Shown in pieces: positions 1,637 through 64,000 of a DNA stretch of 64,000 bases (position 1 is the stretch's first letter; every line of letters begins with the position of its first letter). This stretch comes from a virus. The notes under the pieces are model-generated. The model ran no database searches. It saw nothing but the letters and a program-made list of their open reading frames with translations, and had not been told where the DNA came from. The DNA is taken from IMG/VR virus record IMGVR_UViG_3300021964_000045, positions 1 to 64,000 of that record; one strand, 5' to 3'. The position numbers and the translations under genes are program-made.

Positions 1637-1856
1637 AATGGTGCCTGGTACTAATATTATTATACCAGATTCAGCATTACAAAAAGAATATAAAGGGTAT
1701 GTTATTGGTGTAGGTGCAGAAGTTTCTGATATTAATGTAGGTGACTTAATACAATATGCTGAATATTGTGTACCAACTGAAATGGAACATGAAGGTAAAG
1801 AACATTTACTAATTAATGTTGGGGATATTCATGCAATTATACAAGAAGTAGAATAA
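1572..1856 (+). CDS. GroES-like co-chaperonin (Cpn10), 94 aa
   Basis: The length is right for a Cpn10 subunit. The protein starts with a beta strand of the K-I-I-P-V-G-K-K-V-L-I type, has a mobile-loop-like stretch around residues 22-34 (V-P-G-T-N-I-I-I-P-D), then Y-K-G-Y-V-I-G-V-G and V-G-D-L-I-Q-Y strands, and ends in H-L-L-I-N-V-G-D-I-H-A-I-I, the usual last strands of GroES. Phage GroES homologues such as T4 gp31 partner the host GroEL to fold the capsid protein. Here the gene lies directly before the terminase and head genes, consistent with that job. The hydrophobic I-I-I in the loop matches the GroEL-binding tripeptide position. It overlaps the terminase start by 1 nt. Confidence 0.85.
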   Translation: MQKVKIIPVGKKVLIRAKEQSRMVPGTNIIIPDSALQKEYKGYVIGVGAEVSDINVGDLIQYAEYCVPTEMEHEGKEHLLINVGDIHAIIQEVE

Positions 1857-4045: not shown

Positions 4046-4047
4046 GT

Positions 4048-29410: not shown

Positions 29411-32400
29411 ATGGCAAAGAAAAGAAATACAAAAAAAGCCAGCAAACCTAATTTACAAAATACATCTAGTGTAGACATTAGAATATTTTTAAAAGGTATG
29501 GTTAAAGATCCTAATGCTTCTTTTCAACAAAAAGATACTTGGTCTCACGCACGTAATGCAATAAATAATTCTGTAGACGGAGATGTAGGTTTGTTAGGTA
29601 ATGAACCAGCAAACGTAGCTTGTGGTAGAGCGCCTTATACTATTATAGGAGCAGTGCATACTTATTCAGATCAATGGATTATTTATTCCACTGATAATGT
29701 TAATTCAGAAATTGGACTATTTGATGATAGCAAATGTGAATATACTACTTTAGTTAATGATCCATGTTTAGCATTCAATCAACATCATTTAATAACAGGT
29801 GCAGCAAAAGAAAATTTTGATTGTACTTGGCAAGTATATTGGGATGATGGAAATAATCCATCCAGGACACTTAACATAGATGATATACCTTGGAAACAAA
29901 TTGTTGTATCTAATCCAGGAGATCCTTGTGTTATATATGAAGATACCAATGATTTAGATTGTGAAAAAATAAGACTTGCTCCTTTGTTAGATACGCCTTG
30001 CGTTAAGATAAAAAAGTCTGAAAGTGGTGGTCAGTTAAGAAATGGATCATACCAAGTCTTTATAGCTTATACTGTAAATGAACAAAAGGTAACTGATTAT
30101 ATTGGAGTATCTAATATTCAATCATTATTTGATCATGCAGGTACTTCTGGTTCATTAGCTATAAACGTTACTAATCTTGATAAAGAATTTGATTATTATG
30201 AGTTAGTAATACTAAGTAATAATCAAGAAAATACTGTTGCAAAAAAAATAGGATTATATAGCACTGAGCAATCAGATATAGAAATAGATTATATTGATCA
30301 ATCTTTAGTTACTGTACCTCTAGAATTTATACCTCTGCGTACACCTGCTTATGAAAAATCAGATGCAATGTATGTTGTAAATGATTATTTAATAAGACAA
30401 GGACCTACAGAACAATTTGATTTTAACTACCAACCTCTTGCTAATAAAATAAAAACAAGATGGACTGTAGCTGAATACCCTGCTGACTACTATTATAAAA
30501 GTGGTAATAAAACAGGATTCATGCGTGATGAGCAATACGCTTTTTTTATAAGGTGGATTTACAACACAGGTGAAAGATCAAGTTCATATCACATACCAGG
30601 TAGAGCACCAAGAACAAATGGAGTTAATCAATTTGGACAGACTGTTGATGAGACAGCAATTAATGTTACACAAAATGCATTAAACGGTACAGAACAAAAT
30701 TATCAAGTTTATAATACTGCTACTATAACTCAGCCTAGTTTAAGTATACCCACTGGTGATGGAGGTACTATTATTGCAAAAGGGGATATGGCTTATTGGG
30801 AGTCAACTGAAAAATATCCAGCAACTAGACCAGATCTATGGAATACTTCTTCAAATCCTATATGGGGAGGTGGTAATCCAGATTATGATTTATGTGGCTT
30901 ACCCATAAGACATCATAAAATGCCAACAGAAGAAATTGGATCTCAGTTAATGCTTTCTGGTCTAAATGCTGGTGGTGCTAATACAATAAGAATCCTTGGT
31001 GTTGAATTTTATGATATACAACCTCCTTTAGATAATGATGGTAATTTGATTACTAACATAGTTGGTTATGAAATACTAAGAGGTTCAAGAGAAGGTCATA
31101 GATCTATTCTTGCAAAAGGTATATTTAGAAACATGAGAGTTTATGATATACCAGACGGTGGACAAACTCTTGGTAATGATAAAGGATTATATCCAAATTA
31201 TCCATACAATGATTTAAGACCTGATATATTTTTTCATGATGGTAAGAAAAATGATCAACACAGAACAGATGGTTGTGATAATTTTACTCAGTCTAAAAAT
31301 AATTACAAGCCCTTAACAGGTTATAAAAAAGATTACTTTACATTTCATTCACCTGAATTAATGTTTAGAAAGCCTTTTTTAAATGCTTATGAAACTAGAA
31401 TATATGGTGAGTTAAATGGTGAGTCTGTTGGTAAATTTATAAAATCAGAAAATCACCCTCAAAATAAATTATTAAGAAATGGTGCTGCAATTGTTGCCGG
31501 GCTTTTTGGTATTGGTTATGCAGTCAGACAAGTTCAAGGAGAAACAACAAAAGAACAACAAGCACTTCAAGGTTTTAATCCAATATATGCACCATGGTTT
31601 GTTGGTGGTCCAGGTTCTACAGGTGGTACTTTTACAGGTGGTTTTACTGCAGCAAGTGGTACGATACCACTAATGGCAGGTGGAAGTGCTATAGCTAATA
31701 TCCTTGTTAATGAGCTTTTAAAAAATGCCGTAGATGTTAGTGATATATATACGGGTGGTCTTGTATCTGATTTAGTATTGGAAGGTAGAGGAGCAACTAG
31801 CTTTTTAGCTACTGCTGCTCCTGGTACAATGGGTGGTGGAGTGAATAGAGGTGTTACCTATACTAGCCCTGACTCTGCAATACCTAGTTTATTAGGTGTA
31901 GCTATGGGTCTTGTTATTGCTCAGAAAAATATTACAATAGGAGCTCAAGAACTTATTGATTTAATGTATAACCTTGTTGCTGAAGATGATTTTGCATTTA
32001 AATATAATTCACATGGATTTTATAATTTTTTTAGAAAAAGATTATCTAATCAACTTTATAGAACCAAAAATAAAAATGCTAATTATGTAAAAAGTTCATT
32101 TCAAGAATTTGAAGGTTTTAAAATAAATAATTTATTTAGACCAATGACAGTTGCAATTGCAACAGAAGATGAATTTGATAATCCTATTAAACTTGATAAT
32201 TCTAGATATGCAATTGGTGGTGATGCTACTTCTGACTACTTAGATAATTTTTTAGAAAATCCAGAGCAAGAACAAACAAGAAATATATCTGCCTTATATG
32301 GTGGTTTGAAATTTGAGTTTGAAAATCAGTATGGTCAATTGGATGGTATTAAACAAGTTCAAATGAAAGGGTGTGTTGAATTAATTACTGCAGAAAACAC

Positions 32401-46146: not shown

Positions 46147-49100
46147 ATGCAAGATTCAAATATACAGACTGATCCTATCTATCAACCAGATGACTTTCAG
46201 TTTCAACCAATTGATGAAATGTTTGACTTAGACTTTGATGCAGAAAGCGTTCAAGGTATGGGAGATTACATGAAAAATTTAGAAGCATTGGCACCAGCAA
46301 TGAATCAATATGCAATGCCTCTTGATCTACCTATTTCAAAACACAATTCACCTAAACCTGGTTTTGATAATTTTGAATCATTTAAAAAAGTATTTAATTC
46401 ACCAACTCCTTTTTTAGGTGGTGAACAACAAATGAAATTACAAGATCCTATAATTTCTGGAATTAAGTCTTCTAGTTATGACAGGTATGCAAGAATGGAT
46501 GCTTTTGATAAATTGGGTTGGAGACCTGATATGGATATGGAGTCTTACTATAATGCAAATACTACAGGATGGGATGATTTTAAAAGGTCATGGGGTCCGT
46601 GGTGGACTAACTTTTCAAGTGGTTTTACAAGTGCTGCTAGATCTTGGGGTGATTTGTTTAGTGGTGATGAAAGCTACTGGACATCAGCAGATTTAGAAGG
46701 TGCTACTGCTATGTCAGAAGCAAACAGATTAGGAGCAAGTACAAGAGGTGGTACCACTGGTTTCTTAGTTAATCTTAATCTAAATGCAGCTCAAACATTA
46801 GGAACAATTAGTGAAATTGCTGCAGAAGAATTAGCACTTGCCGCTGCTGGTGCTGCTTTAACTTCAACTGGTGCTGGAGCTCCAGCCGGTATAGGTGCAT
46901 TTGTTGCTGGTACGGGTAAAAATTTTGTAAAAGGGATTAAGAGTATAGGTAATATATTTGATATTACAAGAACAGTAAGGCTTGGTAAAGATGTATTATC
47001 AACTCTTAGAACTGCCGATAAAGCAAAAGATTTTTGGAGTGTAGCTAAAGCAGGAGGAAGATTAGCTGGTGACTTTTTTACACCAGAATTAAGAGCCACT
47101 TTAAAGTCTTTTAAATCTTCTGAAAGTGCCGCGAGAGGTTTAAGTAATTTAGCTAAGACATCAAAATCATTTGGTGCATTTTACAGAGATGCTAGAGCAA
47201 TAAACCTTACAATGAGTGAATCTAAACTTGAAGCAGGTTTTGCTTATCAAGATATGTTTGCTGAAAATGTTGAAAGAGTAATGCGTGAAAACGGTGGTGC
47301 TCAATTAACACCAGAACAATTAAATGATATAAATATTGAAGCATTAAAGGCAGCTACAAATTCTGTTTTATTTAATGCTCCAGCAATTTTTATAACTAAT
47401 AAAATTGTTTTAGGTAAAGCCCTTGGCGGATTTTCTCCGCAACTAAGAAGAATTTTTAATAAAGTAGGAAATTCTAAAAACATAGTAAGAAAAACTACAG
47501 TACAAAATTTTATAAAGAATAGAGCTGCTGGTAAGACAGCAGGTAAATTATTTCAAGAAACATCTAATAAATCAGTTATTGGTAAATTATTTGGTTGGAA
47601 TAAATTAAAAGCTTTAGGTGTTAAGGGTAGTCTTAAATATACAGCTGGAGGAATACTTAGATATTCTGCCGGTGGTTTAAGTGAAGGTTTGCAAGAAGTC
47701 TATCAAGAAGGTGTTGCTGTAGGTCTTGTTGATTATCATTCAGCATTATTAGATACACCAAATGCTAATAGACATGATCTTCAAAAAGCAGCAATGATGG
47801 CTGGTATTGATAGTCAAACAACCGGTCAAGGGTTTGAAACTTTCTTGTCTGGATTTTTAATGGGTGGATTAGTCCAAGGTCCTCAAAGACTAATGTTTGA
47901 GGTATTGCCTAGTTACATTCAGGAAAAAAGAAATCCTAAAGACTATGCAGAATATAAAAAACAAAGAGATGAATTTGTAGATAAGGTTAATGACATAGCA
48001 GAAGAAGTTGCTAAAGATCCTGCAAATTTTATGAGTTCTTCAAAACTAAACTTTTTTAGCCAAAAACAATCTGAAGATGATGGTGATAAACACATGTTTG
48101 AAGATAGTGAATTAGGCTTAAGAGATAGCAATGATGATTCTTTTATTATGAATGCTCATCATATGGTTGCTAATGGAACAGAAGGTTTATATATAGAACA
48201 ACTGGAAGATATTCAGAAATTATCTGATGAAGCATTAATAGAAGCTTATCCTAATCAAAAAGAAGATATAGAGTCTGGTAAGTTTAAAGAACGTGTTGAT
48301 AAATCAATTGAAAGAATTAAAAACTTCAAAAAAGACTATGATGCAAGTTTTAACATTATAGAAAACCCTTATGCGTTTAAACAATTTGAACAAGGTTCAA
48401 AAGAATATAATATTGCATTAGCAAAATACAGTGCTGTAGAACATGGACGTTTGCTTTATCTACTCAGTAAAGAATCTTTTAAATCTGCTGCTAATAGAAG
48501 AGATGCAATTGAACAAGCTCTTAAGCTTACAACAGCAGAAGGTAGCGCTGACGTTAATGATCTTACACCTTTATTGGCTGTTGATTCTATACAAAGAGAA
48601 GTTGCTTTATTAAGTAGTGAAATAGAAGCTTTAGAAAATGCAGAAAATATAGATAAAACCATTCTTGATTCTAAGAAAGATAAACTTGTTGCTCTTACCG
48701 GATACTTAGTTACTCTTCAAAGCATAGAAGATAAAGAAGCAGGTGTATATGATAGAGATAAGATGGAAGTTCTTAAAACTCCACTTAAAGCATATATTGA
48801 ATCTGTATCAAAGAATGTTTTACTTGATGATGAAAAGTTGTCTTACTTAGTAAAGCAATTAGTAGATCACAGTTATTTAGATAAAAGAGCTCAAGTTTAT
48901 GCTCGTAGTGTATCTATGTTTAGTGATCAAGCTAAGTTTACTGAAATGTCAGATAGATTAAGTGAAGTGTTTTTAACACGCTTTAATAATATTAAAAGAG
49001 ATTTTAAAGCAAGTGTTATAAAGGGTATGCAAAACCAGGAAAGAGTTTCTTTGCTAGAAGCTTTGGCTGCTATAGGTAGTGAAAATAAAAACGGTGGTGT

Positions 49101-52100
49101 TTACGCAGAAACAGAACAGTCTGTTAAATTTATGGAAACAGGTGATGCATCTGTTTTAGTTGATTTCTACACAGAAGCAGGAAAAGTTTTTAAGTCTAAT
49201 AGTAATGAGTTGTATGGAAAAATACAAACTCTTATAGATAACTATAATAGAGTTAAGTTTGAATCTGAAAAGTCTGATGTTAAAGCTGAAGAAACAAAAA
49301 CAGATGTAAACAAAAAAGATACAAGTACTGATAAAAAATCAGAGTTAAATGATTACTTAAAGTTATCTTCTGATAGCCCTATACTTAACGTAGAAGATGG
49401 TATTGATATACTAAAAGAAAATGAATCTCCTTTTTCTAAACTACTATTAGAAGATTTATATTCAAGATACAAGCAACAGCAAAGAATTGCTAAAGAACCA
49501 ATTGTAAGCAAAGCAGATTGGATTAATACAACAGAAGGAACTAATGCTGTAGCAGCGCTAGAAAAACTTAAAGGTATATGGCTTGCCTCTGAAAGCAATA
49601 AAGCTTTAACAGATCAAGCTAAAAATAACATTGCTAAGAGTGAAGAAGGATTCCAAGAATGGATACTTTCTCAAAAGGATGATGCTTCTGTTTATAGATC
49701 ACTTGAATTTGGTGGTTTAAAAGCTACAGACGTAGAAAGAAATGAAACTAATGAAGGGTTTGATTCTGTTGTAGAAGATAATCCTTTGCTTGAATGGGCA
49801 GATAAAGGCCCTGGTGTAAATATTCTTAAAAAAGAAATAGCAAGTATTGATTCTATAGATGATGAAGATGTATCTGATGTTAGAGAAACAATATACACTT
49901 TAACAGATAACTCTGGTAACAGAGTGTCAGATGATCTTTTAGATTTAGCTGGTTTAGATAGAGCTGCTTTTACAGATTTTCAACAAGCCGTTGATGCATT
50001 TGAAGAACTTAAAAAAGTTATACCTGATACAACTCCTTTTAATTTTGATGGTGTTACATTAAAAAATCTAGATGTTGTAGAAGATGCCAATGGTAATAAG
50101 TTTAGAGTTTTAGGCACTGCATCTTCTGCTAATAATGGAGCAAAGCTTGAATTAATTTCTCTTGAAAAACAAGATACAGAAGGTGTAGATAAAGCACTTT
50201 CTTCTTTTACAGTTGAACAATCTGGTTTTTCAGATTTGTATACAAAGGTTGAAGAAACATTTGAAGGTGTTAAGCTATCAGCTAATGCTGTAAAACTTTT
50301 ACCATCTGAGGTTAATGGTATCTATCCTAAATCATTTGGGCCATTTGGCACAGACACAGATGTAGATATGAGATTTAACAAGGTTCTTTCTTTATTATCT
50401 CCAGAGCAACTATCTACTTTAGAAATTAAAATAAGACCAAACCCAAATCAATCATCAAATTTCTTAAGAGCAGGTGATGATACTACTGAAAACAAACTTA
50501 TTGTTAGAGGAGATAAGTATACAATGGAAGTAGTTATACCTGAAAACATGAGAGAAGGTATATTAGAAAGAATGGATGGCTTTAGTTATCCTGAAAATTG
50601 GGATGGTGCTATTGGATTTGTAAGAAATGATCATTTTAGATTTACTAACAACGGTAATCAAAATGATATAGTTGAAATAAATCAATTAGAAGATAAAGTA
50701 ATAGAGAGATATATTACACCAGATGGAGTGAGTGTTTCAGAAATGAAGCAAGAAATGCTTAAGCAAAAATATCTTACTCTAAAGATAGATGAGTTGATGA
50801 AAGATAAAACTAATGCTACCATAACCATGGCAGACTTAGAAAGCTTAAACTTCTCATTTAAAGTAACAGGTGGTCAGTATGAAGACACCAATAGCTATGA
50901 TACTACATATGATAACTTAGATCAAAATAAATATGATGGTCATAAGATTGTAATTGTTAATACAAGGAACGTTGATTCTATTGGTGAAAGATTTGAAACA
51001 GATATTGAAGATCCACAAGAACATCTAGCATTTGTAGAAAAAGTAATTAGTGAGTTAGAATCAACTCCTGTTGAAGGAGGTGATGCTAACATGTATCAAA
51101 AGGCTATTTCAAAAGGAGGGTACGTAGGTATTATTAAAGATCCTCTTACAGGTAAGATTGTACTGGCTAGATTAGTACCTAGAAATTTAGAAGTAGATGA
51201 GCGTAATGAATTATTTACAGAGCTTATAACCAAAGCTAAAGAAGTTAGAGATTCTAAAACTGGTACACAACCTAAGCAAACTACTGAAGCAGAAAGTTTA
51301 AAAGCTGTTCAGATTCTTTACCAAGGAATATATGGTACCCCTTATCAGCAAAATGTAGGTGGTCCTGGCTTAGTAAAACTTGAGGTAGAGGTTGAGGAAG
51401 AACAAGATCAAAACTATGTAGGAATTAAATTTGTAACTACAATAATAAGCAAAAAAGGAAATTCTATAAAGCAAAACGAAAAGAGATATGTTACTGCAGA
51501 GCAGTTTATAAATGAGTTTAATTTAACTGATGAAGAACTAGATAATACTAAACCAGCTACTAAAGAATCAGGAAGCCAATCTATACCTCTTACTAAAGAA
51601 GATGGAGAAAGGCGTATAGCAGAATATGGGCAAGAAAAGTTAAAGCTTGAAAAAGTTGGTAGTGGTTATGGTATGCCTTTGAGAACTTACTTACAGTTAA
51701 TGGAAGAAGAGTCTACTGGTAAAATTACTGTACTAAGCATTAGAAAAGATACGGCTAATGGTAATACATTCATATCTATTGTGGGTCCTTATGGTCCGCT
51801 TGATATACAGGTTAATAGGGAACCCGCTTCTATAAAGCAAGCTGCTAAATCTCAACAAGCTAGTAAGGCTGAAACTACAAAAAGTAGCATGCCTTTATTT
51901 GATTGGAATAAACAATTTAATAATAAATTTTTTAGTGCAACTAACCCAACAGAAAAAACATACTTAGACTTACAGGTTACAAAATCTGGAGACATTGTTT
52001 TAAGAGTTAAAGTTGGAGCTAAAGGCTCTACATTGACAGCAATGCAAAGCTTTAAATCTGCTGAGTTAGATAACTTAAAACCAGAAGACATTTTAAGTTT

Positions 52101-55100
52101 ATACTCATTGCTTAATCAAAATCAAAAAGTTATAGACTTTAATGCAAAAAGCAATAATATATTAAATTTTGGTGAGCATAATTTAAAAACAACTTTCCCA
52201 TTAGATGCTACGTTAGATCAAATTTTAAATCAAACAAAAACAAATTTAGACTCACGTGTTCTTAAAGGTGTTAGGGTAAAGCTTGAAACAACAGATGAAA
52301 TGGTTGCTGGCCTTAAAATGGTTCAAGCATCTAAACCTGTTAATGCTCCATCTGATGAGTATAGTCAATTTGTTGATACTGGTTTTGTGTCACAAGAAAC
52401 ACTGGAAAGAATAGCTAATAAAGAAGCTAATAAACCCGGTTCTCTTACACTTGAAGAGCAAGCAATATATGCAGACAAAGTTGCTGAAATAAATAAAATA
52501 TTACAGCAAAAAGCAAATGTTGAAATGCAAGAAGATATTGACTTGCAGGCTATGAGTGAAGAGCGTTATAATGAATATAAATCTAAAGACTTTAAAGATT
52601 TACCAAGAGAAATAAAAATTGGTATTGTAAATCAAGTTGTTCAGGAAGGTAGAGAATCTCTAACTGAAAGACAACAAGAAATACTAAAGGTTAACAATGA
52701 TGAGCTTGAATTGCTTATCATGTCTAAGTCATATACTAAACCAGTTGAAGCTGAGGGTAAAACATTAGAGCAAGAAATAGCAGAGGTTGAGGAAGCAATA
52801 AAGAAAGAAAAGAAACGTATTGCCAATGAAGCTAAAAGAACAGGACAACATCAAGCTACTTTAAGAAAAAATTCTAAGATTTATGTAAGCTTGGTAGATA
52901 AGCTTGATGAATTAGAAAAAAGAAGTACTGATGAAAGTGCATTTAAAATACTTGATCCTTCTGAGACTTTACAGAAAGAGGAATCTATTGATGAGTTTTT
53001 AGAATGGGCTGCTGTAAACTTACCTGACTTTATTAAAATTAAAGACTTGTCTGAGATTAAGACACGTTTAAAAAGTACAGGTACAACAGTAGGTCAGTTT
53101 ACAATGGCTTTAAGAAATATTGCAGGAGGCCTTAGTGTTGAAGGTACAATTTACACTGGACCATCTAACGGTATAGGTTATCATGAGTCTTTTCATGCTG
53201 TATTTAGAATGCTGCTTACTACAGAAGAGCAAAATAATTTATTGAAACTTGCCAAAGATGAGGTAAGAAAGAAATTTAAAACATATAAAGCTCTTCAGGA
53301 AGACATAAGCAAATTTGCAAACAGACATCCTAAGTATAGACAGTTGTCAAAAGCTGCATTAGAACGTGAATACTTAGAGGAGTATATGGCTGATCAATTT
53401 CAGGCATTTAAAACAAATCCAAGAAGTACAAAAACTAGTTCAACAATTAAGAGTTTCTTTAACCGTGTTGTTGAATGGATTAAGTCTGTATTAAAGTCTT
53501 TTAGAAAAAATGAACTTGATTTATTTTATGAAAGAATAGACGCTGGTAAATACAGAAATACTCAAATATTAGATAATCAATATACTAATTCATTAGAATC
53601 TGGAGTAGCAATAGATGCATTTAAAGCAATACCTTATAAGATCATTAGAGGTACTAAATTAAAATCAGCTAAATACTTAGATCCTGCCAAAGCAGATATG
53701 CTTACAAGAATGATTGGACAAGTATATGTTACAAGAAGAGGTGATTCAAAGTATAGTGAATTACAAGATGAGGAACTATTATCTGCAACAATTATTGATT
53801 TTGCAGATTTATATGATTCAGAAAAAGATATCTATGCAAGTCTTTCTGATGTTGATTTAGATACTGTTGAACAGTTAAATGAAGCCCTTAATCTTCAAGA
53901 AGGTAAAGCTGTTAAAGAATCAGTAACTAAGTATCTTGATATTTTGAATCTTAAGTTTGATGAGATGGATGATCAAATTGAGGAAGATGAAGATGATTAT
54001 GGTTCAAGAAAAGTAGGTGATTATACAAAAGATGCAAATCAAACAGGTGGTTATAATTCAGCTACAAAAGAAGTTAGAACATTTATAGCAGGTGTATCTA
54101 TTGATTCTAAAGATATGTTTGGTAATGTAGAGTTACAGGACGGTACACCAATAAGAGTACCTGTTAACCATATAGACGTTTATAACGGTCTTATGTTGGC
54201 TGGTATGAATGAAACAAGTGACAGTAAGATGTTAGAGAAGTTGTATTATTTTTCACGTAGAAATGAAAATACAGCTGCAGTAATTGATGAGTTGTTTAGA
54301 GTAACTGGAATTGACATAAATGAATTTAAAGAAACTGGTCAAATACCAAATAAAATAGATAACTCAATGTTGTTTAATCAATTCATGACAACATTTAAAA
54401 ATGCTAGATTTGATTACATCTTTCAATTAACTGATCCTACTACAGGAAAAGTTAGAATTATTTCAGCTTCCAATAGAGATGCAGCAAATGCACAAATAGA
54501 CTATTGGAAAAAAATATTTAATGATAAGTTTGAAATATTTAGAACAGATAATGCAAGTGTAAGACAAGCTGTATCTGGAGTTGCCATGCTTTCAAAAGAT
54601 ATGGAAAAGAAAAAGATTACAAATAAAGATTTAAAAGCTAAATCATTATTGTATTCTAAACTTATTAGTGAACAGCTGGGTATAAAGTTAAGTCCTTTAT
54701 ATATAGAAATAAGTATTGCAAATAACCTATCAGGTAAATTAACCAAGTATCAAGAAACTCTTATTGATATGGGTAAAAATGCAAGATTACTTAGAAGAGA
54801 AGATTTAACTTTAATTACTACTAAGCTTACAGGTAAAGAAAAAAGCACAGGTAAACCATTACCAGAAAATTTATTTATTGATGACTCAGAAAGAGGTTTA
54901 AGTTCAAGGTTAAAACAAATAGCATTAGGTAATGCATTATTTGATGAGACAGTTGGTAATACAGTTTTTGAAGATCCTGAAAGAAACTTAATATATGCAC
55001 ATCAAAATCAGACATTTCATTCAAGAAGAATGATTGAGTTGTCAGATGATGCTGTAATTAGAAAATTACAAGAACAGTTTCCAGATAACACACTTCTTAA

Positions 55101-58100
55101 TTCTGAAGCATTTTTAGAATTGAGTACATCAAAGCAATTACAATTAATCAGAACCGCTGGTTCTAACATGCTTGCTGAAAATGTAGAATCAATGGATCTA
55201 CAAGAAGCAGATGACTTATCAAGACAATCTGTACAAGGTACAAAGTATGGTAAGTTTAATTCAGTTGAATTCACAAGCAACTTAATAAATAGCTACTTTG
55301 AAAGATTCAATACTAAATCAAATAAAGTTGAGACAGCAGCAAATACTGCATTAGCTCCTGTATTTATAAGGCTAATTGAGTCATCAAATACTGGTGATAG
55401 TGTTGGACTTCCTGTTATTAAAGCCGTTAAACTAAGTTCAGATGGTAAAGATGTTGTACTAACACCAGAAGCATTTGATCAGTTTGTAAATAGACTTAGA
55501 ACAGAGTACAATATTATACAAAAAAATAATCAAGACTATGATAAAAATGGTCCTGGTAATATTAAAGGTTATAATGATAGTAAGAATGGACGTGGGTTTA
55601 AGTTCTTTAAAGGTGATTCTCTTATAAGCAAAGAAACACAAGCTGAATTAATTAAATCAGCAGTTGAAGGTAAAACCTTTGATGAAGTATTTGGTAAAGA
55701 ATACAAGACAGAATTGAATAATATAATTAAAGACTATATTAAAGAATTCCAAGGTCTAGCTCAAAAAGCAAGATTAACTACTTCACAACATGTCAAAGGT
55801 ATATTCCCAGATACAGAAAAAGCTTCATCTAGTATGGAAAAGCTAAATGTATTTAGAAAGAATGAACCTGCCAACTTAGCTCAAATATTTATAAGCAATT
55901 GGTTAAACACAATGGCTATTAATGAACTGATATTAGGTGAAGAAGCTAAGTTGTTTAAAGATGCAGTGATAGATCCTATTAAAAGAGCTAAGATGCAAAA
56001 CGCAGCTCATGATTCTATTGCTTTTGATTTCTTACCAAAGGATGATAGCTTAGGTATATCTCATACACTTGGTAGAGAATCTATTGGTTTATTTACATTT
56101 ACTGATCCGGCTACAGAAGACGGTGGTGATAAAGCTGATGCACAATCTTATCAAACAGCTAAAGGTGCTCGTTACTCTGCATATGGATTAGGTAGTTTAA
56201 ATAGTGCATTAGCTAAGATGTATGATGCTATTGATAACGGGGAGAGTGTTGATAATGATTGGTTTAGTACATATCTAAAACAACATCCTAAACATGCTCC
56301 TTTAAATTCAAAGAAATATGTTTTTGGTAATGGTCAAACATTTATCAAAACATCTACAGTTGTCTTAACAAAAGAACTTACTTCTTATAAAAATGAAGAA
56401 GGTGCGTGGGTGGCTAAAGTAGGAATGGAAAGACTACACAACTTACGTGAAAACATGGAAAGGTGGGAGTCTCAAAATGATGGTAAGATTGCAATTGCTG
56501 CTCCTGAGTCAGCAGTTAAAATGCTAAAACAAAATGTAATTGATAATGAAAGCATGACAGCTGAAACAATGGTTTTAAATGAAGAGCATGTTACTTTATT
56601 GGATGCCAAAGATTTTGGTAGACAGATGGTAAATCCTTCAAACAAACTTTTGATGACGGATGCTAGTCAAATTAAAACTATTATAACATCTGAGCAAGCA
56701 GTACTAGATAAAGACTTTAAAGTTGTAATTGATGGTGAAGAATTACCAATTGCTGATGTGGTAAAAGAATATCATAGATTTACAGCTGCTGGTGTTAACT
56801 TTGAATACAGTGATAAAAAGAATTTAATATTTGATTTACTACCTCACTTGGAAGAGAGTGTATTAGAGCAAATGGATATTGAACCAAATTTATATTCTTT
56901 TATTAAGACAGCACAAGCAAATTTAAAATCATCTGCTGCAAGTAGTACGGAAGTAGAATTCTTTACAGAAGAAGATGGAAAACCTAAATATGAATTAAAC
57001 AATCCAATAACAAGTCAGAAGTTTGAACAGTTCTTTATGGCATACTTTAGCAAAAAAGTATTAAGTCAAAAAGTACCAGGTGTAACACTTGCATTAATGT
57101 CTGACTTTGGAGTACCTGTTATTAGAGAGATTTATTCTTTTGACACAACAGGTAGACCGGATAAACAAAGAGTTGTTAGAAGAAAAAATTCTAATCAGTA
57201 TAATGGTCAAAATCTATTAGACATAACCAATGCTGAAGATTTAGAATTGGCAAAACAACAACTTGAATCAGATCCTTCTAAACCAATTGTTGTTTTAGAT
57301 AGATTACGCTATGACATGAAAGAATATGACATGGTTAATCCAAATGATCCTTCAACTTGGGTGGCAACTAATATTAGATATGCTGAGACACTTATGCCTG
57401 CTCATCATGAAGACGTGATGCGTCATTTAGAAAATAAAAACATTAAGGATCTACCTGATTCTGTAGCTAAAATGTTTGCTGTTAGGATACCTACACAAGA
57501 TAAGCATTCTTCAATACCTTCAAAGGTTGTTGATTTTTTACCTGTCTTTTATGGGTCAACTGCAATATTCCCTGAAGACTTAATTAAAGTATCAGGAGCA
57601 GATTTTGATATTGATAAAGTATATGCAGCAATTAAAGAGTGGTATTATAAAGACGGTAAGTTTACTGAATATGGTACCAGAAAAGGCTCTGAAGGATTTG
57701 CTGATTATATTAGATATACAAACAAAAAAGTTGCTGAAAGAGGTAGTAACTTAAATGAAGCTTTATTAAAGTATAATGCTGGAGGTCTAGCAGCTGAAGT
57801 TGAAAGTAAATCAATTGAAGAAATAATGGATCTTTTAACATTAGGTTATAGCCCTGAAGCAATTGATGCTTCTATTATGCTTGGACTACCTATTACAGAA
57901 AAAGAATATAATAAGTATATTAAAGATAATGGAGTAGAACCATATAAAGCTTCTATTACAAATAAATTAGTTAGCTTAAAATATTCACTTGTAGGAAATA
58001 CTAAACTTACAGAAACAACAGATGGCTCTGTTCCTGTATCATACCAGCCTGCAGATATTGAAGCTGTTAAAGAAGTGTGGGAAAGCTTAAGTAATCGTTT

Positions 58101-60975
58101 TGAAATACTTAAGACTTATACTAAAGATGGTGACATGTCAATTGATAATTTGATAGGTCAATTCTACAGTCACAAAAATGTTAAAGAAAACTCAGGTCTT
58201 ATTGGAGCTGTTGTACCACCTGCTACAATCATTAACTTTTTAAAGGAAATGAATGTTTCTTCAGAATGGTTTAGTTTAGATGTAGATGGTATATCCTATA
58301 ATAGATTTACTAATAAAAGTGAATCAGATAGAACACACTATATAATATCTAATTTAATTACGCTTGCAACAGATGATGCAAAAGAACGTTTGCTGAGTAA
58401 ACTTGGATATAACAAAAAAGGAATAAAGCTTGTTTTGGCTATGGTTTCTTTTGGTATTCCATTAGAGCAAGCATCAATGCTCGTTAATGTAAAAGCTGTA
58501 AGAGAAATTCTTGAAGAAAGTGAATCACCAATGAGTGATATTAGAGTAGCAAGAAAAGATCTTTTAAAACGAAATGTTGAAGCTAAGCCTGTAACAACTG
58601 CTTCATTAGGTAAAGGTATAGAAGGAGATGTATCTGATCAAGAATTATTAGGTTTATTAAATCTAGTAATTCAAGCAGATGCACTATCTGGTGAAATAGA
58701 TAATTTGCAAGCAATATTTAGTTTGAATAAAGGTTTTGGAAAAGACTTTTCATCTTTAATGAATGTAGATGATTCAATAGATAAAGCAGGATTGTATTTA
58801 TCTAATCAAGAAATGCAAGATTCTATTTCAAACAAACAAAGAATATTTGATTTAAGAAATGCTTTTAGCACAGACTTATCAAAAGATAAACCAGTGCGTC
58901 ACTACATTGGAGAATACATAAGAATATTTGAAGACTTTAAAAGAAATGTATTACCTGAAGTATTTACTTCTCAGAGTCCTGATTTTAAACGTATTCTTCA
59001 AGGAGTATTAAGCTACACTAAAATTGTTGGTGGAAAAGAAGGAGCTAAAGTAAAAGCTCAAATTCAAAAAGACATGCTTTCTTACTTTACAATTAAGGCT
59101 TATATGAAAGACTTATTTGATAGAGAAGCAGGATCTCTTGTTGGTGGTTCATTAACAAATGAATTTTTGTATCCAAGTGAAAACAGTGACTTTAATATTA
59201 CTACAGTATTTAAGGATCTTAAGAATAACTTTAATACAGGTGATAATTATTTTCTTGACTATTTTGTATTTACAAAAACTGTAAAGTCAGAGGATAATAA
59301 AACAGGGATGAATATTGCAACTACAAGAAGCTTTGGTAAATTAAGTGACAATGAAAAAGTAAGAATACAAAATGGTTTTCAAGCCCTTTACGGTGATATC
59401 AAAACAAGAAAGGAAGCTGTGCATATACTTCATTATATAATGGCCAAAGACGGTTTAAGTTTGGCAGCAGGTAGTTTGTTACAAGCTATTACACCATTTG
59501 GTTTAGAAAAATATTTAGGGGCAAGTACTGAAGTGTTTAAAACATTTAAAGGACAAAATAAATTTGAGGATGTATTTGGTCAAAGCTTACAAGAATTAAG
59601 TTTAGATTTTATAAATAACTATGGTATGTCTGCTTCTTTTGCTAGTAATATAAAAGCTGACTATACTGTTTTTTCTAAAAATTCTGGATACTCAACTAGA
59701 GCTGATAAAGATAGATTAACAGTTGTTAGATCAGATAAAGATTCAGCACCTATGATATTTCCTAAATTTATTTTTAGAGAAACTAAAAATCCAATTGGAG
59801 TTCAAAAACAATATTATAAGTTAGTAAGTGGAAGTTTAAAAGAAAATGAAGTATCTGTTGACAATATAGACGCTTCTCTATTGACAGAAGGTCTTTATGA
59901 AAAGTTTGATTTAGAAGGTTCTTATTATCAAAATGGAATAGGATTTATTTTTGATAATGAAAATTTTAAAAGACCAAAGACATTTGAGTTATATACAACA
60001 GATAGATTTGATGCAGTAGATGTAAACTTTGATACGACTACTATTCCGGATGATGTTACAATGCCAGAAGGTATTTCTGAATTAAGTAGTTTAAATAATG
60101 TAAATAGAGTTGCAACAGAAAAAGGTATTGAAGTTGGAGGAAAAAATATTGCAGATATTACAGATAAAGATATACCAGAGGGAATTAAAGATGCTGCTGA
60201 TAAATTGCTAGCATTTACTAAAAAAGGTTCACCAGCAACACAAACTAGTGGGGTTACTATAAATAATAAAAAATGGACTAAAGATTCTCCAAAAGAAAAC
60301 CTTAATACTGCTTATGTATTTACAGAGAATATAAACTCAATAGGAGATACTAGAGTTGGAGGAGGCTCTGCTGTAATTAGAAATAATCCTAATGCCGTTG
60401 GTATAGTAACTAAGAAGTATTATACATATAAAGAAAATAGGGATGCTAATAATAAAGAGCAATGGAATGCTAACTTTCAAGATACAGATGCTGATTTTGA
60501 ATTATTTAAGAAAGTTAACTTAGAACAATTTGCTAAATTAGATAAATTTGATTCTAAAATATTTCCAGATTCTTTTGCTAATTCTTTGGCTGCTGTACCT
60601 AATAGATTTGCGTTATGGCTTCAGAATGAATTACAAACTAGATATGGTTTAGTTACTGAAGTAAACAGTAAAGGAACGGGTCTAATATCTAAATCTGTAC
60701 AGCCAACACAACCAACACAACAAACTAGTGAAGTTGAAACTGGTCAGTTAGATTTGTTTGATGTTAGTGAATTGCAATCATTAGGTTTACCTTTGACAGA
60801 TAATTTTAGTATATTGCTGGAAGATTTAAAAACAACACCTGGGGCAATTCAAAAAATGAAAGAAGATGGTGTTAATATATCAGATTTAAATTCTCTTAAA
60901 GAATCATTTAAGAAGAGTGCATTTACAGAAGAATCACAATATGAAGAGCACTTGAGAAAGTGTTACTTAAAATAA
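46147..60975 (+). CDS. Giant virion protein: zincin protease + putative RNA polymerase, 4,942 aa
   Basis: One uninterrupted 14.8-kb gene. The N-terminus is acidic; residues about 215-262 are Ala/Gly-rich and hydrophobic, and another hydrophobic patch lies near 561-580 (F-L-S-G-F-L-M-G-G-L), possibly membrane-active. A zincin-type metallopeptidase is seen at H2346-E-S-F-H2350 with a likely third ligand in E-E-Y-M-A-D (2411-2416). V-S-G-A-D3819-F-D3821-I-D3823-K carries the three metal-binding Asp of the beta'-type double-psi barrel of RNA polymerases (N-A-D-F-D-G-D in cellular enzymes); crAss-like phages encode such single-chain polymerases. Near the C-terminus lie a V-F-T-E-N ... G-G-G-S-A-V-I-R region (about 4720-4850) and Q4867-L-D-L-F, a beta-clamp-binding-like pentapeptide. 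It probably enters the cell with the DNA and transcribes early genes. Confidence 0.75.
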   Translation: MQDSNIQTDPIYQPDDFQFQPIDEMFDLDFDAESVQGMGDYMKNLEALAPAMNQYAMPLDLPISKHNSPKPGFDNFESFKKVFNSPTPFLGGEQQMKLQDPIISGIKSSSYDRYARMDAFDKLGWRPDMDMESYYNANTTGWDDFKRSWGPWWTNFSSGFTSAARSWGDLFSGDESYWTSADLEGATAMSEANRLGASTRGGTTGFLVNLNLNAAQTLGTISEIAAEELALAAAGAALTSTGAGAPAGIGAFVAGTGKNFVKGIKSIGNIFDITRTVRLGKDVLSTLRTADKAKDFWSVAKAGGRLAGDFFTPELRATLKSFKSSESAARGLSNLAKTSKSFGAFYRDARAINLTMSESKLEAGFAYQDMFAENVERVMRENGGAQLTPEQLNDINIEALKAATNSVLFNAPAIFITNKIVLGKALGGFSPQLRRIFNKVGNSKNIVRKTTVQNFIKNRAAGKTAGKLFQETSNKSVIGKLFGWNKLKALGVKGSLKYTAGGILRYSAGGLSEGLQEVYQEGVAVGLVDYHSALLDTPNANRHDLQKAAMMAGIDSQTTGQGFETFLSGFLMGGLVQGPQRLMFEVLPSYIQEKRNPKDYAEYKKQRDEFVDKVNDIAEEVAKDPANFMSSSKLNFFSQKQSEDDGDKHMFEDSELGLRDSNDDSFIMNAHHMVANGTEGLYIEQLEDIQKLSDEALIEAYPNQKEDIESGKFKERVDKSIERIKNFKKDYDASFNIIENPYAFKQFEQGSKEYNIALAKYSAVEHGRLLYLLSKESFKSAANRRDAIEQALKLTTAEGSADVNDLTPLLAVDSIQREVALLSSEIEALENAENIDKTILDSKKDKLVALTGYLVTLQSIEDKEAGVYDRDKMEVLKTPLKAYIESVSKNVLLDDEKLSYLVKQLVDHSYLDKRAQVYARSVSMFSDQAKFTEMSDRLSEVFLTRFNNIKRDFKASVIKGMQNQERVSLLEALAAIGSENKNGGVYAETEQSVKFMETGDASVLVDFYTEAGKVFKSNSNELYGKIQTLIDNYNRVKFESEKSDVKAEETKTDVNKKDTSTDKKSELNDYLKLSSDSPILNVEDGIDILKENESPFSKLLLEDLYSRYKQQQRIAKEPIVSKADWINTTEGTNAVAALEKLKGIWLASESNKALTDQAKNNIAKSEEGFQEWILSQKDDASVYRSLEFGGLKATDVERNETNEGFDSVVEDNPLLEWADKGPGVNILKKEIASIDSIDDEDVSDVRETIYTLTDNSGNRVSDDLLDLAGLDRAAFTDFQQAVDAFEELKKVIPDTTPFNFDGVTLKNLDVVEDANGNKFRVLGTASSANNGAKLELISLEKQDTEGVDKALSSFTVEQSGFSDLYTKVEETFEGVKLSANAVKLLPSEVNGIYPKSFGPFGTDTDVDMRFNKVLSLLSPEQLSTLEIKIRPNPNQSSNFLRAGDDTTENKLIVRGDKYTMEVVIPENMREGILERMDGFSYPENWDGAIGFVRNDHFRFTNNGNQNDIVEINQLEDKVIERYITPDGVSVSEMKQEMLKQKYLTLKIDELMKDKTNATITMADLESLNFSFKVTGGQYEDTNSYDTTYDNLDQNKYDGHKIVIVNTRNVDSIGERFETDIEDPQEHLAFVEKVISELESTPVEGGDANMYQKAISKGGYVGIIKDPLTGKIVLARLVPRNLEVDERNELFTELITKAKEVRDSKTGTQPKQTTEAESLKAVQILYQGIYGTPYQQNVGGPGLVKLEVEVEEEQDQNYVGIKFVTTIISKKGNSIKQNEKRYVTAEQFINEFNLTDEELDNTKPATKESGSQSIPLTKEDGERRIAEYGQEKLKLEKVGSGYGMPLRTYLQLMEEESTGKITVLSIRKDTANGNTFISIVGPYGPLDIQVNREPASIKQAAKSQQASKAETTKSSMPLFDWNKQFNNKFFSATNPTEKTYLDLQVTKSGDIVLRVKVGAKGSTLTAMQSFKSAELDNLKPEDILSLYSLLNQNQKVIDFNAKSNNILNFGEHNLKTTFPLDATLDQILNQTKTNLDSRVLKGVRVKLETTDEMVAGLKMVQASKPVNAPSDEYSQFVDTGFVSQETLERIANKEANKPGSLTLEEQAIYADKVAEINKILQQKANVEMQEDIDLQAMSEERYNEYKSKDFKDLPREIKIGIVNQVVQEGRESLTERQQEILKVNNDELELLIMSKSYTKPVEAEGKTLEQEIAEVEEAIKKEKKRIANEAKRTGQHQATLRKNSKIYVSLVDKLDELEKRSTDESAFKILDPSETLQKEESIDEFLEWAAVNLPDFIKIKDLSEIKTRLKSTGTTVGQFTMALRNIAGGLSVEGTIYTGPSNGIGYHESFHAVFRMLLTTEEQNNLLKLAKDEVRKKFKTYKALQEDISKFANRHPKYRQLSKAALEREYLEEYMADQFQAFKTNPRSTKTSSTIKSFFNRVVEWIKSVLKSFRKNELDLFYERIDAGKYRNTQILDNQYTNSLESGVAIDAFKAIPYKIIRGTKLKSAKYLDPAKADMLTRMIGQVYVTRRGDSKYSELQDEELLSATIIDFADLYDSEKDIYASLSDVDLDTVEQLNEALNLQEGKAVKESVTKYLDILNLKFDEMDDQIEEDEDDYGSRKVGDYTKDANQTGGYNSATKEVRTFIAGVSIDSKDMFGNVELQDGTPIRVPVNHIDVYNGLMLAGMNETSDSKMLEKLYYFSRRNENTAAVIDELFRVTGIDINEFKETGQIPNKIDNSMLFNQFMTTFKNARFDYIFQLTDPTTGKVRIISASNRDAANAQIDYWKKIFNDKFEIFRTDNASVRQAVSGVAMLSKDMEKKKITNKDLKAKSLLYSKLISEQLGIKLSPLYIEISIANNLSGKLTKYQETLIDMGKNARLLRREDLTLITTKLTGKEKSTGKPLPENLFIDDSERGLSSRLKQIALGNALFDETVGNTVFEDPERNLIYAHQNQTFHSRRMIELSDDAVIRKLQEQFPDNTLLNSEAFLELSTSKQLQLIRTAGSNMLAENVESMDLQEADDLSRQSVQGTKYGKFNSVEFTSNLINSYFERFNTKSNKVETAANTALAPVFIRLIESSNTGDSVGLPVIKAVKLSSDGKDVVLTPEAFDQFVNRLRTEYNIIQKNNQDYDKNGPGNIKGYNDSKNGRGFKFFKGDSLISKETQAELIKSAVEGKTFDEVFGKEYKTELNNIIKDYIKEFQGLAQKARLTTSQHVKGIFPDTEKASSSMEKLNVFRKNEPANLAQIFISNWLNTMAINELILGEEAKLFKDAVIDPIKRAKMQNAAHDSIAFDFLPKDDSLGISHTLGRESIGLFTFTDPATEDGGDKADAQSYQTAKGARYSAYGLGSLNSALAKMYDAIDNGESVDNDWFSTYLKQHPKHAPLNSKKYVFGNGQTFIKTSTVVLTKELTSYKNEEGAWVAKVGMERLHNLRENMERWESQNDGKIAIAAPESAVKMLKQNVIDNESMTAETMVLNEEHVTLLDAKDFGRQMVNPSNKLLMTDASQIKTIITSEQAVLDKDFKVVIDGEELPIADVVKEYHRFTAAGVNFEYSDKKNLIFDLLPHLEESVLEQMDIEPNLYSFIKTAQANLKSSAASSTEVEFFTEEDGKPKYELNNPITSQKFEQFFMAYFSKKVLSQKVPGVTLALMSDFGVPVIREIYSFDTTGRPDKQRVVRRKNSNQYNGQNLLDITNAEDLELAKQQLESDPSKPIVVLDRLRYDMKEYDMVNPNDPSTWVATNIRYAETLMPAHHEDVMRHLENKNIKDLPDSVAKMFAVRIPTQDKHSSIPSKVVDFLPVFYGSTAIFPEDLIKVSGADFDIDKVYAAIKEWYYKDGKFTEYGTRKGSEGFADYIRYTNKKVAERGSNLNEALLKYNAGGLAAEVESKSIEEIMDLLTLGYSPEAIDASIMLGLPITEKEYNKYIKDNGVEPYKASITNKLVSLKYSLVGNTKLTETTDGSVPVSYQPADIEAVKEVWESLSNRFEILKTYTKDGDMSIDNLIGQFYSHKNVKENSGLIGAVVPPATIINFLKEMNVSSEWFSLDVDGISYNRFTNKSESDRTHYIISNLITLATDDAKERLLSKLGYNKKGIKLVLAMVSFGIPLEQASMLVNVKAVREILEESESPMSDIRVARKDLLKRNVEAKPVTTASLGKGIEGDVSDQELLGLLNLVIQADALSGEIDNLQAIFSLNKGFGKDFSSLMNVDDSIDKAGLYLSNQEMQDSISNKQRIFDLRNAFSTDLSKDKPVRHYIGEYIRIFEDFKRNVLPEVFTSQSPDFKRILQGVLSYTKIVGGKEGAKVKAQIQKDMLSYFTIKAYMKDLFDREAGSLVGGSLTNEFLYPSENSDFNITTVFKDLKNNFNTGDNYFLDYFVFTKTVKSEDNKTGMNIATTRSFGKLSDNEKVRIQNGFQALYGDIKTRKEAVHILHYIMAKDGLSLAAGSLLQAITPFGLEKYLGASTEVFKTFKGQNKFEDVFGQSLQELSLDFINNYGMSASFASNIKADYTVFSKNSGYSTRADKDRLTVVRSDKDSAPMIFPKFIFRETKNPIGVQKQYYKLVSGSLKENEVSVDNIDASLLTEGLYEKFDLEGSYYQNGIGFIFDNENFKRPKTFELYTTDRFDAVDVNFDTTTIPDDVTMPEGISELSSLNNVNRVATEKGIEVGGKNIADITDKDIPEGIKDAADKLLAFTKKGSPATQTSGVTINNKKWTKDSPKENLNTAYVFTENINSIGDTRVGGGSAVIRNNPNAVGIVTKKYYTYKENRDANNKEQWNANFQDTDADFELFKKVNLEQFAKLDKFDSKIFPDSFANSLAAVPNRFALWLQNELQTRYGLVTEVNSKGTGLISKSVQPTQPTQQTSEVETGQLDLFDVSELQSLGLPLTDNFSILLEDLKTTPGAIQKMKEDGVNISDLNSLKESFKKSAFTEESQYEEHLRKCYLK

Positions 60976-60982
60976 AATAATA

Positions 60983-63900
60983 ATGGCTAAGTGTTATAAT
61001 AAAAATTTACCTGAGTATCAATCTTTATCTGAAGAGTTTAAAGATAACATGGTTGTTGATAGCTTAATTGAAAAATGGCAAGCATTAAATAACTCAGAAG
61101 AGTTCCCTACTGTAGAACAAGCAAAACAAGTAAAAGAAGAACTTAATTTATCTTTTTCATTAAAGACTAAGGCTTTTACAGATGCGTTAATATCTAATTT
61201 AGTAAGAAACAAAATTATACATTACTCAGAAAAGTATGGTGGTTACTATCTTAATAATACTAGAGGGGATGAAAGAATTGGTAATCCTGAAAGCTTAAGA
61301 ATTAACTATAATAGATTAATGGGTTACTTAGATAAAAATAAGATACCTAGAGATGTTATAGATGATACTGAAACAAGGAGGTCACGTAGGATTTTTATAA
61401 ATGAAGATGCACTGATGCCTGCAGATGTTTTACCAAAAAGCAGAAGAGCAGCAGGTACTCACACAGTTGATGTATTAAATCACGTGAGACAAATGATACC
61501 TGGCTTAGAGTATAAAATTCTGTCTGTTAAAGAAGCAGAGAATCTTTATGAGTCATTACCACCATCTCAAAAAAATAAAACACCATTTGCTCAAATAAAT
61601 AGTTTTTACGTAAATCAAACAGCTATCTTAATCAAAGGTAGAGTTACCCATGACATTGCAATAGAAGAGGTCTTACACCCTTTAATTGATGCAGTGTATG
61701 TAGACAACCAAGAGTTATTTAATAGCTTGTACAATGAAGCTGTAGCTAATTTTCCTGAACTCAAGCAAGAAATAGATGAAGCTTATAATACTAAGTATAG
61801 AAAGTTTAGTGAAAAGCACAGACAACTTGAACTTGTTACTCAAGCTTTAACAAGATATTTTTCTAATGAGTTTGAAAATACACCAACTAAATCATTTAGA
61901 GATAAGGTTGGAGAGTTTTTAAATTGGTTCTTAGATGTAATTAAAAATCTTTATGAAGTATATACAGGTGGTACAGCTAAGCTTAAAGTAGATAATATAA
62001 AACCAGGAACAAGTTTATCAGATATTGCAAAACTTCTTAATACAAGTGAGCTTCAATTTAAGTTAGAAAAGAAAGTTGATTCTAAGGTTAGATATTCACT
62101 ATCTGAAGAAAAGCAAAACTCATTAGATCAAATAAGAAGAAAAGGTAATGATGCACAAAAAATTGTTTTAGATAAACTATTTCATGCTGCACAACAAAGA
62201 AAAGGAGATACGCCTACATTCAGTGTAGGTAAAAAAGATATTGGAGATAATGATGACATAGTAATATTAAATGAGAAAAATCATACTTACTATAATTTAA
62301 AAGATCTATCTATTGAATATGTTTCATCTACAACTGCTATTGGTGGTAAGATGGAAAACTTAGATAATGTACAAATGAATCTTGCCGTTGGTAATGACTT
62401 TGACAATATAGCTGAGTCTATAGTATTAGGAAAGTCATTAGCGGATATCAAAGAAGCTGGTATGCAAATCTTAACTGATGAGCAACTAACCAGAGCATAT
62501 TATTCAATGGATGGATATATCAAGGCAATTACCAACCAAGGAGATATATTAGTACCTCAAGTTGTTGTTCATGGTAAAAACGCAGAAGGTATTAACATTG
62601 CAGGAACTATTGATTTACTTGCAATAACACCACAGGGTAAATTAAAAATATTAGATTTAAAGACAAGTAAAAATAGATTATCAACTAGTGAAGATGGTAA
62701 ATATAATACTGAATGGGATTTAAAAGATGATTCTTTATTAAAAGCTTATGGTGTAGAAAAATTATCAACTAAACAAAAACATAATCTTCAAGTAAACTTA
62801 TATGCAAGAATGCTTGAGAATATGGGCTATGAAGTTGACTCTTCTGAACAAGGGGCAAGTACTCATCATATATGGGTTGACATAAAAGGTAAAGGTAAAA
62901 ATCAAACATTTTCAGGAAATTTTGAAATAGAGGATATGGTTTTTCATCCTATAAGTCAAAATAAACCTTACGTTGATGCTCTAATGCCTAAGAATATAAA
63001 TAAAGTATCACAAGCAGAACTTGATAAGGCACTAGCTGATACGGGTGATTCAACCAAAATACTTGATGAAATAAACAACTCTGAATTTGAAGGACTAGAT
63101 GAATATAACCCATCTGAATTTGGTGGATTGGAACAAAACATGTACTTCAATGCAATTAAAAAATATAGAAAAAGTCTTACAACTAGACGTGATGTAATTG
63201 AAACAGTAAGATCTGCTGTTTACATGGACAGATCTAAAGAAGATGCAGTAGAAAGAATAAGTACTATGCTTGCATTTACAACTATTGCATTAACGGAAAA
63301 AGGAGAAGCACCTAGAGTATTTACAGAATTGCTTAGAGATGTTAAAAAAGAATTAGAATCCTATGAAAAGTTTCTTTTAAATAAAGACAATGCATCTAAT
63401 CCACTATATTTAACAAGGGCAACAAATTATGAAAACTTTATTAAAACATTTGAAGGATTATATAAATTACCATCTATTGCCTCGTTAACTGGAATACAGA
63501 AAGATCTAATACTACAAATACAAAATACATTAAATAGACTTAGTGAATCTACTGCGGAAAAACCAAGCATTATTGATGAAGCATTATTTACTCATGGAAA
63601 AGCTATTATTAAAAAATATTCAGGTAAAGATTTTACATCTTATGTAGATCCTATAACAGGAGAAGTTGTAAATCCATTTGACGATTTATTTTACTCTGTA
63701 ATAGAAGACATGAGTACTGTTGATTATTATACAAGAGATATAAATACAGCAGAAGATACTATTCTTGCTACAATGAAAAAGATGTGGCATGCAAAAAGGC
63801 AAGAAGTTCTTGATAGAATAGAAGCAAGAAAAGGTTTTGTTTTATATGCGTCTAGACTAGCTAAGCTATCACCAGGAAAAAGTCCAAAAGATATCTATGA

Positions 63901-64000
63901 ATTCATGATTGAATTGGATAAAAATGGTGTACATACGGGAGAGCTAGTTAAAAAGATAGGACCTCAATACTATGATCAGTTTAATGCTTTATATAAATCA
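60983..64000 (+). CDS. Second giant virion protein with degenerate zincin and RecB-like nuclease domains, 3' partial
   Basis: Starts 7 nt after the previous stop and stays open for 1,006 codons to the window end. Residues about 200-330 resemble the zincin region of the preceding protein (E-E-V-L-H at 228-232 where H-E-x-x-H is expected, a later L-E-L-V-T-Q-A-L helix, then an amphipathic F-L-N-W-F-L-D-V-I-K-N-L-Y helix), but the first His is Glu, so it is probably inactive. Residues about 500-650 form a RecB-family nuclease: G-T-I-D544-L-L, L-D558-L-K560-T-S, and Q603-V-N-L-Y607. The rest is helical. It is likely packaged and ejected like its neighbour. Confidence 0.75.
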   Translation, partial: MAKCYNKNLPEYQSLSEEFKDNMVVDSLIEKWQALNNSEEFPTVEQAKQVKEELNLSFSLKTKAFTDALISNLVRNKIIHYSEKYGGYYLNNTRGDERIGNPESLRINYNRLMGYLDKNKIPRDVIDDTETRRSRRIFINEDALMPADVLPKSRRAAGTHTVDVLNHVRQMIPGLEYKILSVKEAENLYESLPPSQKNKTPFAQINSFYVNQTAILIKGRVTHDIAIEEVLHPLIDAVYVDNQELFNSLYNEAVANFPELKQEIDEAYNTKYRKFSEKHRQLELVTQALTRYFSNEFENTPTKSFRDKVGEFLNWFLDVIKNLYEVYTGGTAKLKVDNIKPGTSLSDIAKLLNTSELQFKLEKKVDSKVRYSLSEEKQNSLDQIRRKGNDAQKIVLDKLFHAAQQRKGDTPTFSVGKKDIGDNDDIVILNEKNHTYYNLKDLSIEYVSSTTAIGGKMENLDNVQMNLAVGNDFDNIAESIVLGKSLADIKEAGMQILTDEQLTRAYYSMDGYIKAITNQGDILVPQVVVHGKNAEGINIAGTIDLLAITPQGKLKILDLKTSKNRLSTSEDGKYNTEWDLKDDSLLKAYGVEKLSTKQKHNLQVNLYARMLENMGYEVDSSEQGASTHHIWVDIKGKGKNQTFSGNFEIEDMVFHPISQNKPYVDALMPKNINKVSQAELDKALADTGDSTKILDEINNSEFEGLDEYNPSEFGGLEQNMYFNAIKKYRKSLTTRRDVIETVRSAVYMDRSKEDAVERISTMLAFTTIALTEKGEAPRVFTELLRDVKKELESYEKFLLNKDNASNPLYLTRATNYENFIKTFEGLYKLPSIASLTGIQKDLILQIQNTLNRLSESTAEKPSIIDEALFTHGKAIIKKYSGKDFTSYVDPITGEVVNPFDDLFYSVIEDMSTVDYYTRDINTAEDTILATMKKMWHAKRQEVLDRIEARKGFVLYASRLAKLSPGKSPKDIYEFMIELDKNGVHTGELVKKIGPQYYDQFNALYKS

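Follow-up and report, generated by a model that had tools for sequence, protein, structure and literature searches.

The closest described counterparts of the locus analysed here are the giant RNA polymerases of crAss-like phages, which according to a review reach about 6,000 residues (PMC10136315). Packaging, ejection and early transcription have been described for phi14:2 and crAss001 (PMC10172136, PMC7886860), and it is from these two phages that we argue by analogy; the RNAP-associated proteins of crAss001 have been found in virions (PMC10172136), and gp076-gp078 of phi14:2 are structural proteins detected by mass spectrometry. Three modules can be traced across such genomes: A, an N-terminal part followed by a zincin; B, the polymerase; and C, the ORF that follows. 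PhiCrAssBcn22 (Steigviridae) carries the same three modules as the protein described below, but in three separate ORFs (proteins 49, 46 and 47), whereas in Carjivirus communis (Intestiviridae) the fusion is the opposite one, with A alone (gp45, annotated “RNAP associated protein fused to zincin protease”, so that the zincin had already been named) and B and C joined (gp44, “RNAP catalytic subunit fused to unknown RNAP subunit”). The gp96 protein of Thermus phage P23-45 (5,002 aa; PMC10770324) is likewise a very large virion protein that combines a two-barrel RNAP with a metallopeptidase domain, but there the RNAP is N-terminal and fused to a tape measure, its motif is DFDGD (PMC10770324), and its fold match to our protein is weak (E 0.015).

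The window, by which we mean the whole stretch of 64,000 nucleotides analysed, comes from a record of 76,858 bases (IMGVR_UViG_3300021964_000045) and contains a 4,942-aa frame that opens with ATG and is uninterrupted along its whole length (Table 1). A first-pass annotation had reported it as a single ORF with HESFH at residue 2346 and SGADFDIDK further on, all of which we confirm. Searching with the whole protein (phmmer) retrieved nothing from the PDB or from PHROGs, so that profiles built from its own clade were needed, and weak Pfam matches to DUF3666 and MgtE_N fell under the cut-off. The DUF7831 domain near the C-terminus is an optional insertion (column occupancy about 14% among relatives); a NADAR domain (E 3.3e-8) is inserted in the giant chain of one relative in our zincin alignment, A3.

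Table 1. Features of the window and their positions (position 1 is the first base of the window).
Feature	Positions	Strand	Remarks
Giant protein, modules A (N-terminal part and zincin) and B (virion-type RNA polymerase) in one chain	46147..60975	+	
Module A, residues 1-2290, conserved N-terminal region of RNAP-associated protein	46147..53016	+	Profile matches: Lbo-JY46 XAI97382 (1,552 aa), 1,812-aa Spirosoma oryzae ORF
Zincin-like metalloprotease domain (predicted), residues ~2330-2470	53134..53556	+	HESFH 2346, EEYMAD 2411-2416
HESFH (HExxH) codons, residues 2346-2350	53182..53196	+	
Module B, residues ~2490-4690, phi14:2 gp66 counterpart (outer limits approximate)	53614..60216	+	
DFDID putative catalytic metal-binding motif, residues 3819-3823	57601..57615	+	
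DUF7831 domain, residues 4706-4780	60262..60486	+	
Module C, 1,918-aa ORF	60983..64000	+	Extends beyond the window, to record position 66739
Degenerate zincin motif in module C, EEVLH at residue 228	61664..61678	+	
Large terminase subunit TerL, crAss-like (phrog_6681)	1856..4045	+	
Portal protein (phrog_6547)	4048..6801	+	
Major capsid protein (phrog_11589)	8296..9912	+	
Tail stabilization-type structural protein, 5' of cargo and transcription block	29411..34498	+	

PHROGs matches identify a crAss-type TerL (24-27% identical to crAss-like terminases), portal and major capsid protein, which together with the transcription block are the features by which Crassvirales are recognised, and on these genes the genome is crAss-like. 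The top annotated relative of the major capsid protein is that of cyanophage Lbo-JY46 (28.6% identity over 99%), followed by epsilon crAss-like phages. Scanning IMG/VR yielded at least 600 stretches matching the giant protein, of which at least 512 were confirmed as relatives; the best 80 of these served as loci for comparison. In a quick, unrooted tree of the polymerase core (epsilon and zeta left out), the 17 environmental rows fall together on one side of a branch (SH-aLRT 100), separate from all 11 rows of Steigviridae, Intestiviridae, Suoliviridae and Crevaviridae and grouping with none of these families. The giant protein is placed with good support in an environmental crAss-like branch that is little described and counts hundreds of relatives in IMG/VR, and it extends the crAss virion polymerase into that large branch. 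Elsewhere in the same phage, a two-component-like pair of neighbouring genes, one encoding a protein with a histidine-kinase ATPase domain and the other a protein with a response-regulator receiver domain, lies next to ribonucleotide reductase genes (locus L002 7062-8392; about 67,961-69,291 of the record).

The first-pass annotation had read the frame as a crAss-like single-chain RNA polymerase, and one profile and two structure comparisons, all with 6VR4 (phi14:2 gp66) first, bear this out. Homology to gp66 extends beyond the catalytic motif: a clade-only profile (44 sequences, gp66 absent) run against all PDB sequences found 6VR4 as its sole significant chain (E 1.6e-15), and in a whole-genome control picked out gp66 in phi14:2 at 3.4e-17. 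A profile that included gp66 hit 6VR4 at 1.7e-205 and was dropped as circular. When the C-terminal 2,091 residues were used as a tblastn query, 98 phage records were returned, those listed being crAss-like or unannotated gut phages, several labelled RNAP. Predicting the structure in segments, as the first-pass annotation had proposed, gave an AlphaFold2 model of residues 3240-4420 (pLDDT 83.9, pTM 0.84) whose top Foldseek match is 6VR4 (E 1.4e-25 over 1,286 columns), with entries of the RNAi polymerase QDE-1 second. For residues 2270-3330 sequence profiles detect no counterpart in gp66, and the predicted model of this segment also matches 6VR4 by fold (E 5.5e-14), its best matches in a viral library being mostly crAss-like proteins, including those of phi14:2; the counterpart of the solved phi14:2 enzyme therefore begins shortly after the zincin. 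These are whole-fold matches of predicted models to a gp66/QDE-1 type of structure with two double-psi barrels, as opposed to barrel-by-barrel superpositions. Residues 4300-4690 have no profile match to other crAss-like proteins. Taken together, the clade profile and the two predicted models support reading residues ~2490-4690 as a gp66-like polymerase, and the giant protein as a known and correctly identified kind of protein in a little-described branch is a well-supported conclusion. The window protein shares with gp66 the DFDID motif, the fold across nearly all of residues 2270-4420 and the position in the gene order, but gp66 is a stand-alone protein of 2,180 aa, with A and C encoded by separate genes, and identity is very low.

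Among other genomes the polymerase frame is not always organised in this way. One relative has a polymerase ORF of 3,294 aa in which the usual N-terminal module and zincin spacing are missing (L045 4589-14470), and in cr116_1 (L098 7104-17969) the polymerase gene is broken inside the catalytic motif (TGSDFD, then other sequence), with a small ORF between and the remainder in a later ORF, an intron-like arrangement. Apparent splits of the ORF in L027 and L082 were rejected as real gene splits, and look like frameshift or assembly errors, because their positions differ and the frame is unbroken in L028, which is nearly identical to L027.

The catalytic motif itself requires care. DxDxD occurs five times in the giant protein, so the pattern alone says little, and one might argue from it that DFDID arose by chance in a segment of some unrelated fold. 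The copy at 3819 is the only one within a conserved block, the [TS]GxDFDxD block of the gp66 family, and the agreement of the profile and both structure comparisons on 6VR4 refutes the chance reading at the level of prediction and leaves it a negligible probability. S577-G-A-D-F-D-I-D584 of alignment A2 is invariant in 44 sequences, an invariance that comes partly from selection because the motif helped to retrieve them. The suggestion that DFDID is unusual and marks a distinct branch was mistaken: the motif of gp66 is TGSDFDIDK (at 1361), DFDID also occurs in cr127_1, cr3_1, cr107_1 and cr118_1, and DFDVD in Carjivirus, cr55_1, cr11_1, cr128_1 and PhiCrAssBcn22. We therefore rejected DFDID as a branch marker; that the branch is distinct is a conclusion from the tree.

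Upstream, the H, E, F and second H of HESFH are invariant in 40 aligned relatives, and this motif played no role in the search. HExxH is found in 75 of the 80 best IMG/VR relatives, in the same frame and 1,457-1,854 residues upstream of the DFDID motif; the other five comprise two loci cut by the locus end and three with split or differently organised frames. About 65 residues further on, EE..AD is invariant or nearly so in the 40 relatives, and its two glutamates (E142/E143 of alignment A3, within EEYMAD), both invariant, include a candidate third zinc ligand. The domain matches the C-terminal end of the separate 2,341-aa protein PhiCrAssBcn22_49 (residues 2152-2296, profile E 2.9e-15), whose zincin ending “LYHDINNGRYSNA” corresponds to “LFYERIDAGKYRNT” in the giant protein; the joint between A and B sits just past this shared ending. 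The zincin model, mostly helical and of modest confidence, has no metalloprotease match in the PDB, and the sequence match to Pro-Pro endopeptidase is weak (E 0.32).

The first-pass annotation had also supposed a fusion to what may be separate polypeptides elsewhere, rightly so, as the zincin part matches the end of PhiCrAssBcn22_49 and the polymerase part matches phi14:2 gp66. We infer that residues 1 to about 2470 are the equivalent of the virion protein with a zincin tail that Steigviridae make separately, by homology for the zincin and from order and size for the rest; outside the zincin, module A gave no convincing profile match to its Steigviridae counterparts, and tblastn with it found zero phage records. 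Steigviridae keep all three apart (A|B|C), Intestiviridae and Crevaviridae join the last two (A|B+C; for Crevaviridae from the B+C fusion of cr127_1 only), and Suoliviridae and the window clade join the first two (A+B|C). The zincin-polymerase fusion is therefore not new as judged from published genomes: cr1_1 and cr55_1 (4,551 aa), cr118_1 (4,946 aa) and cr130_1 (5,801 codons, with in-frame stops) have it, with HEAFH about 1,440-1,590 residues ahead of DFDxD and then a separate C ORF. Unlike the window phage, these Suoliviridae are gut phages that cluster by themselves in the core tree, and their N-terminal module is unmatched by the profiles used. Module C starts within about 45 bases after B in relatives where this is readable, has counterparts in phi14:2 gp076, PhiCrAssBcn22_47 and the C-terminal half of Carjivirus gp44, and gives a weak PD-(D/E)XK match. 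The second zincin-like motif, in module C, looks inactive in the window clade and in cr118_1 (gp15), where it is EExLH/EExMH (EExLH throughout the relatives listed); the motif is HELVH in cr1_1 and cr55_1 and HEIMH in phi14:2 gp076. The epsilon phage phi17:2 showed none of the three modules in its large structural proteins. That the modules are split into genes at differing points offers a natural experiment on which parts need to pass through the tail jointly.

We assign a probability of about 0.9 to the reading of the giant protein as a crAss-like RNA polymerase of gp66 fold, with A and B fused and with virion packaging, ejection and early transcription by analogy. Residues ~2490-4690 would form two double-psi barrels in one chain, a predicted fold in which DFDID would hold the catalytic magnesium, a putative chemistry. 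As in phi14:2 and crAss001, the chains would travel inside the capsid, pass through the tail as threads and refold in the host, where the polymerase would transcribe early genes; the next ORF, module C, would be the third member of the set. A polymerase made early in infection instead of being carried in the virion has a precedent in P23-45, which also encodes a second polymerase belonging to the same superfamily but not part of the virion (PMC10770324), but the gene lies within the structural and cargo order and is fused to a virion-type protein, and the counterparts in phi14:2 and crAss001 are in virions (PMC10172136 for crAss001), so we regard this as very unlikely and hold that the window phage probably packs its polymerase in the virion.

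The weakest step concerns the zincin, which, we suggest with low confidence, is likely to cut the fusion, or other proteins, in the course of ejection. Two alternatives address processing and leave the identity of the polymerase as above. One is a polyprotein in which the zincin cleaves near the A/B joint (~2470-2490) at assembly, releasing a free gp66-sized polymerase, with the fusion only setting stoichiometry and packaging. In the model a low-confidence linker (2448-2492) separates the zincin from the polymerase, Steigviridae make A and B as two proteins, and HExxH is widely kept; yet no conserved cleavage motif is seen at the joint, the Steigviridae zincin is intact though it has nothing there to cut off, and in Spirosoma the zincin is still fused to B and is degenerate. 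We consider such cleavage possible, though short of an even chance. The same standing goes to a zincin that acts at ejection on proteins of the host or the phage (in the periplasm, for example) while sparing its own chain: it closes the RNAP-associated module also where this module is a protein by itself (PhiCrAssBcn22_49, cr128_1, Carjivirus gp45), but its fold is only predicted, with the PDB search for metalloproteases empty. The fused form opens self-cleavage by the zincin to a direct test.

The flanking modules also occur where the polymerase does not. Besides the closest annotated capsid protein, the Leptolyngbya phage Lbo-JY46 has homologues of the module A N-terminus in a 1,552-aa protein (profiles N1, N2 and N3 at 33.2, 46.6 and 22.1 bits, against 8.5, 5.1 and 5.5 for shuffled sequences, the N2 control being the best of 600) and of module C in a 2,748-aa protein (94.7 bits, shuffled 4.6). 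Unlike the window, its whole 125-kb record contains no match to module B, in a search that recovers gp66 in phi14:2, and the two giant proteins tested contain no match to the window zincin. This combination suggests that A and C are themselves ejection proteins, independent of B, although loss of B in Lbo-JY46 explains the pattern equally well. In module C of this phage (L096 12355-25261), HEFMH stands where the window clade has EExLH. A broader proposal, which we offer tentatively and think on balance unlikely, is that A and C would be an older, polymerase-free ejection machine to which a removable gp66-like polymerase was joined variously (A|B|C, A|B+C, A+B|C, A|zincin+B|C), and that the branch, with its integrated relatives, would be a new family-level crAss-like group.

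Human-gut crAss-like phages have been described as incapable of lysogeny (PMC8375218). On a contig of Spirosoma oryzae (NZ_PVTE01000009.1), host-type genes run to about 106.5 kb and are followed by a tyrosine recombinase (108.2-109.5 kb) and, at 140-196 kb, by homologues of the capsid, stabilization, A, zincin+B and C proteins in the order A|zincin+B|C, with EEAFH as a degenerate zincin motif. A right border was not found for this element (region ~108-217 kb, L113-L122), which is apparently a crAss-like provirus and points to Bacteroidota as hosts of the window phage's relatives, as with other crAss-like phages. A polymerase frame of 3,599 codons is present in another Spirosoma, S. terrae, on a 574-kb contig.
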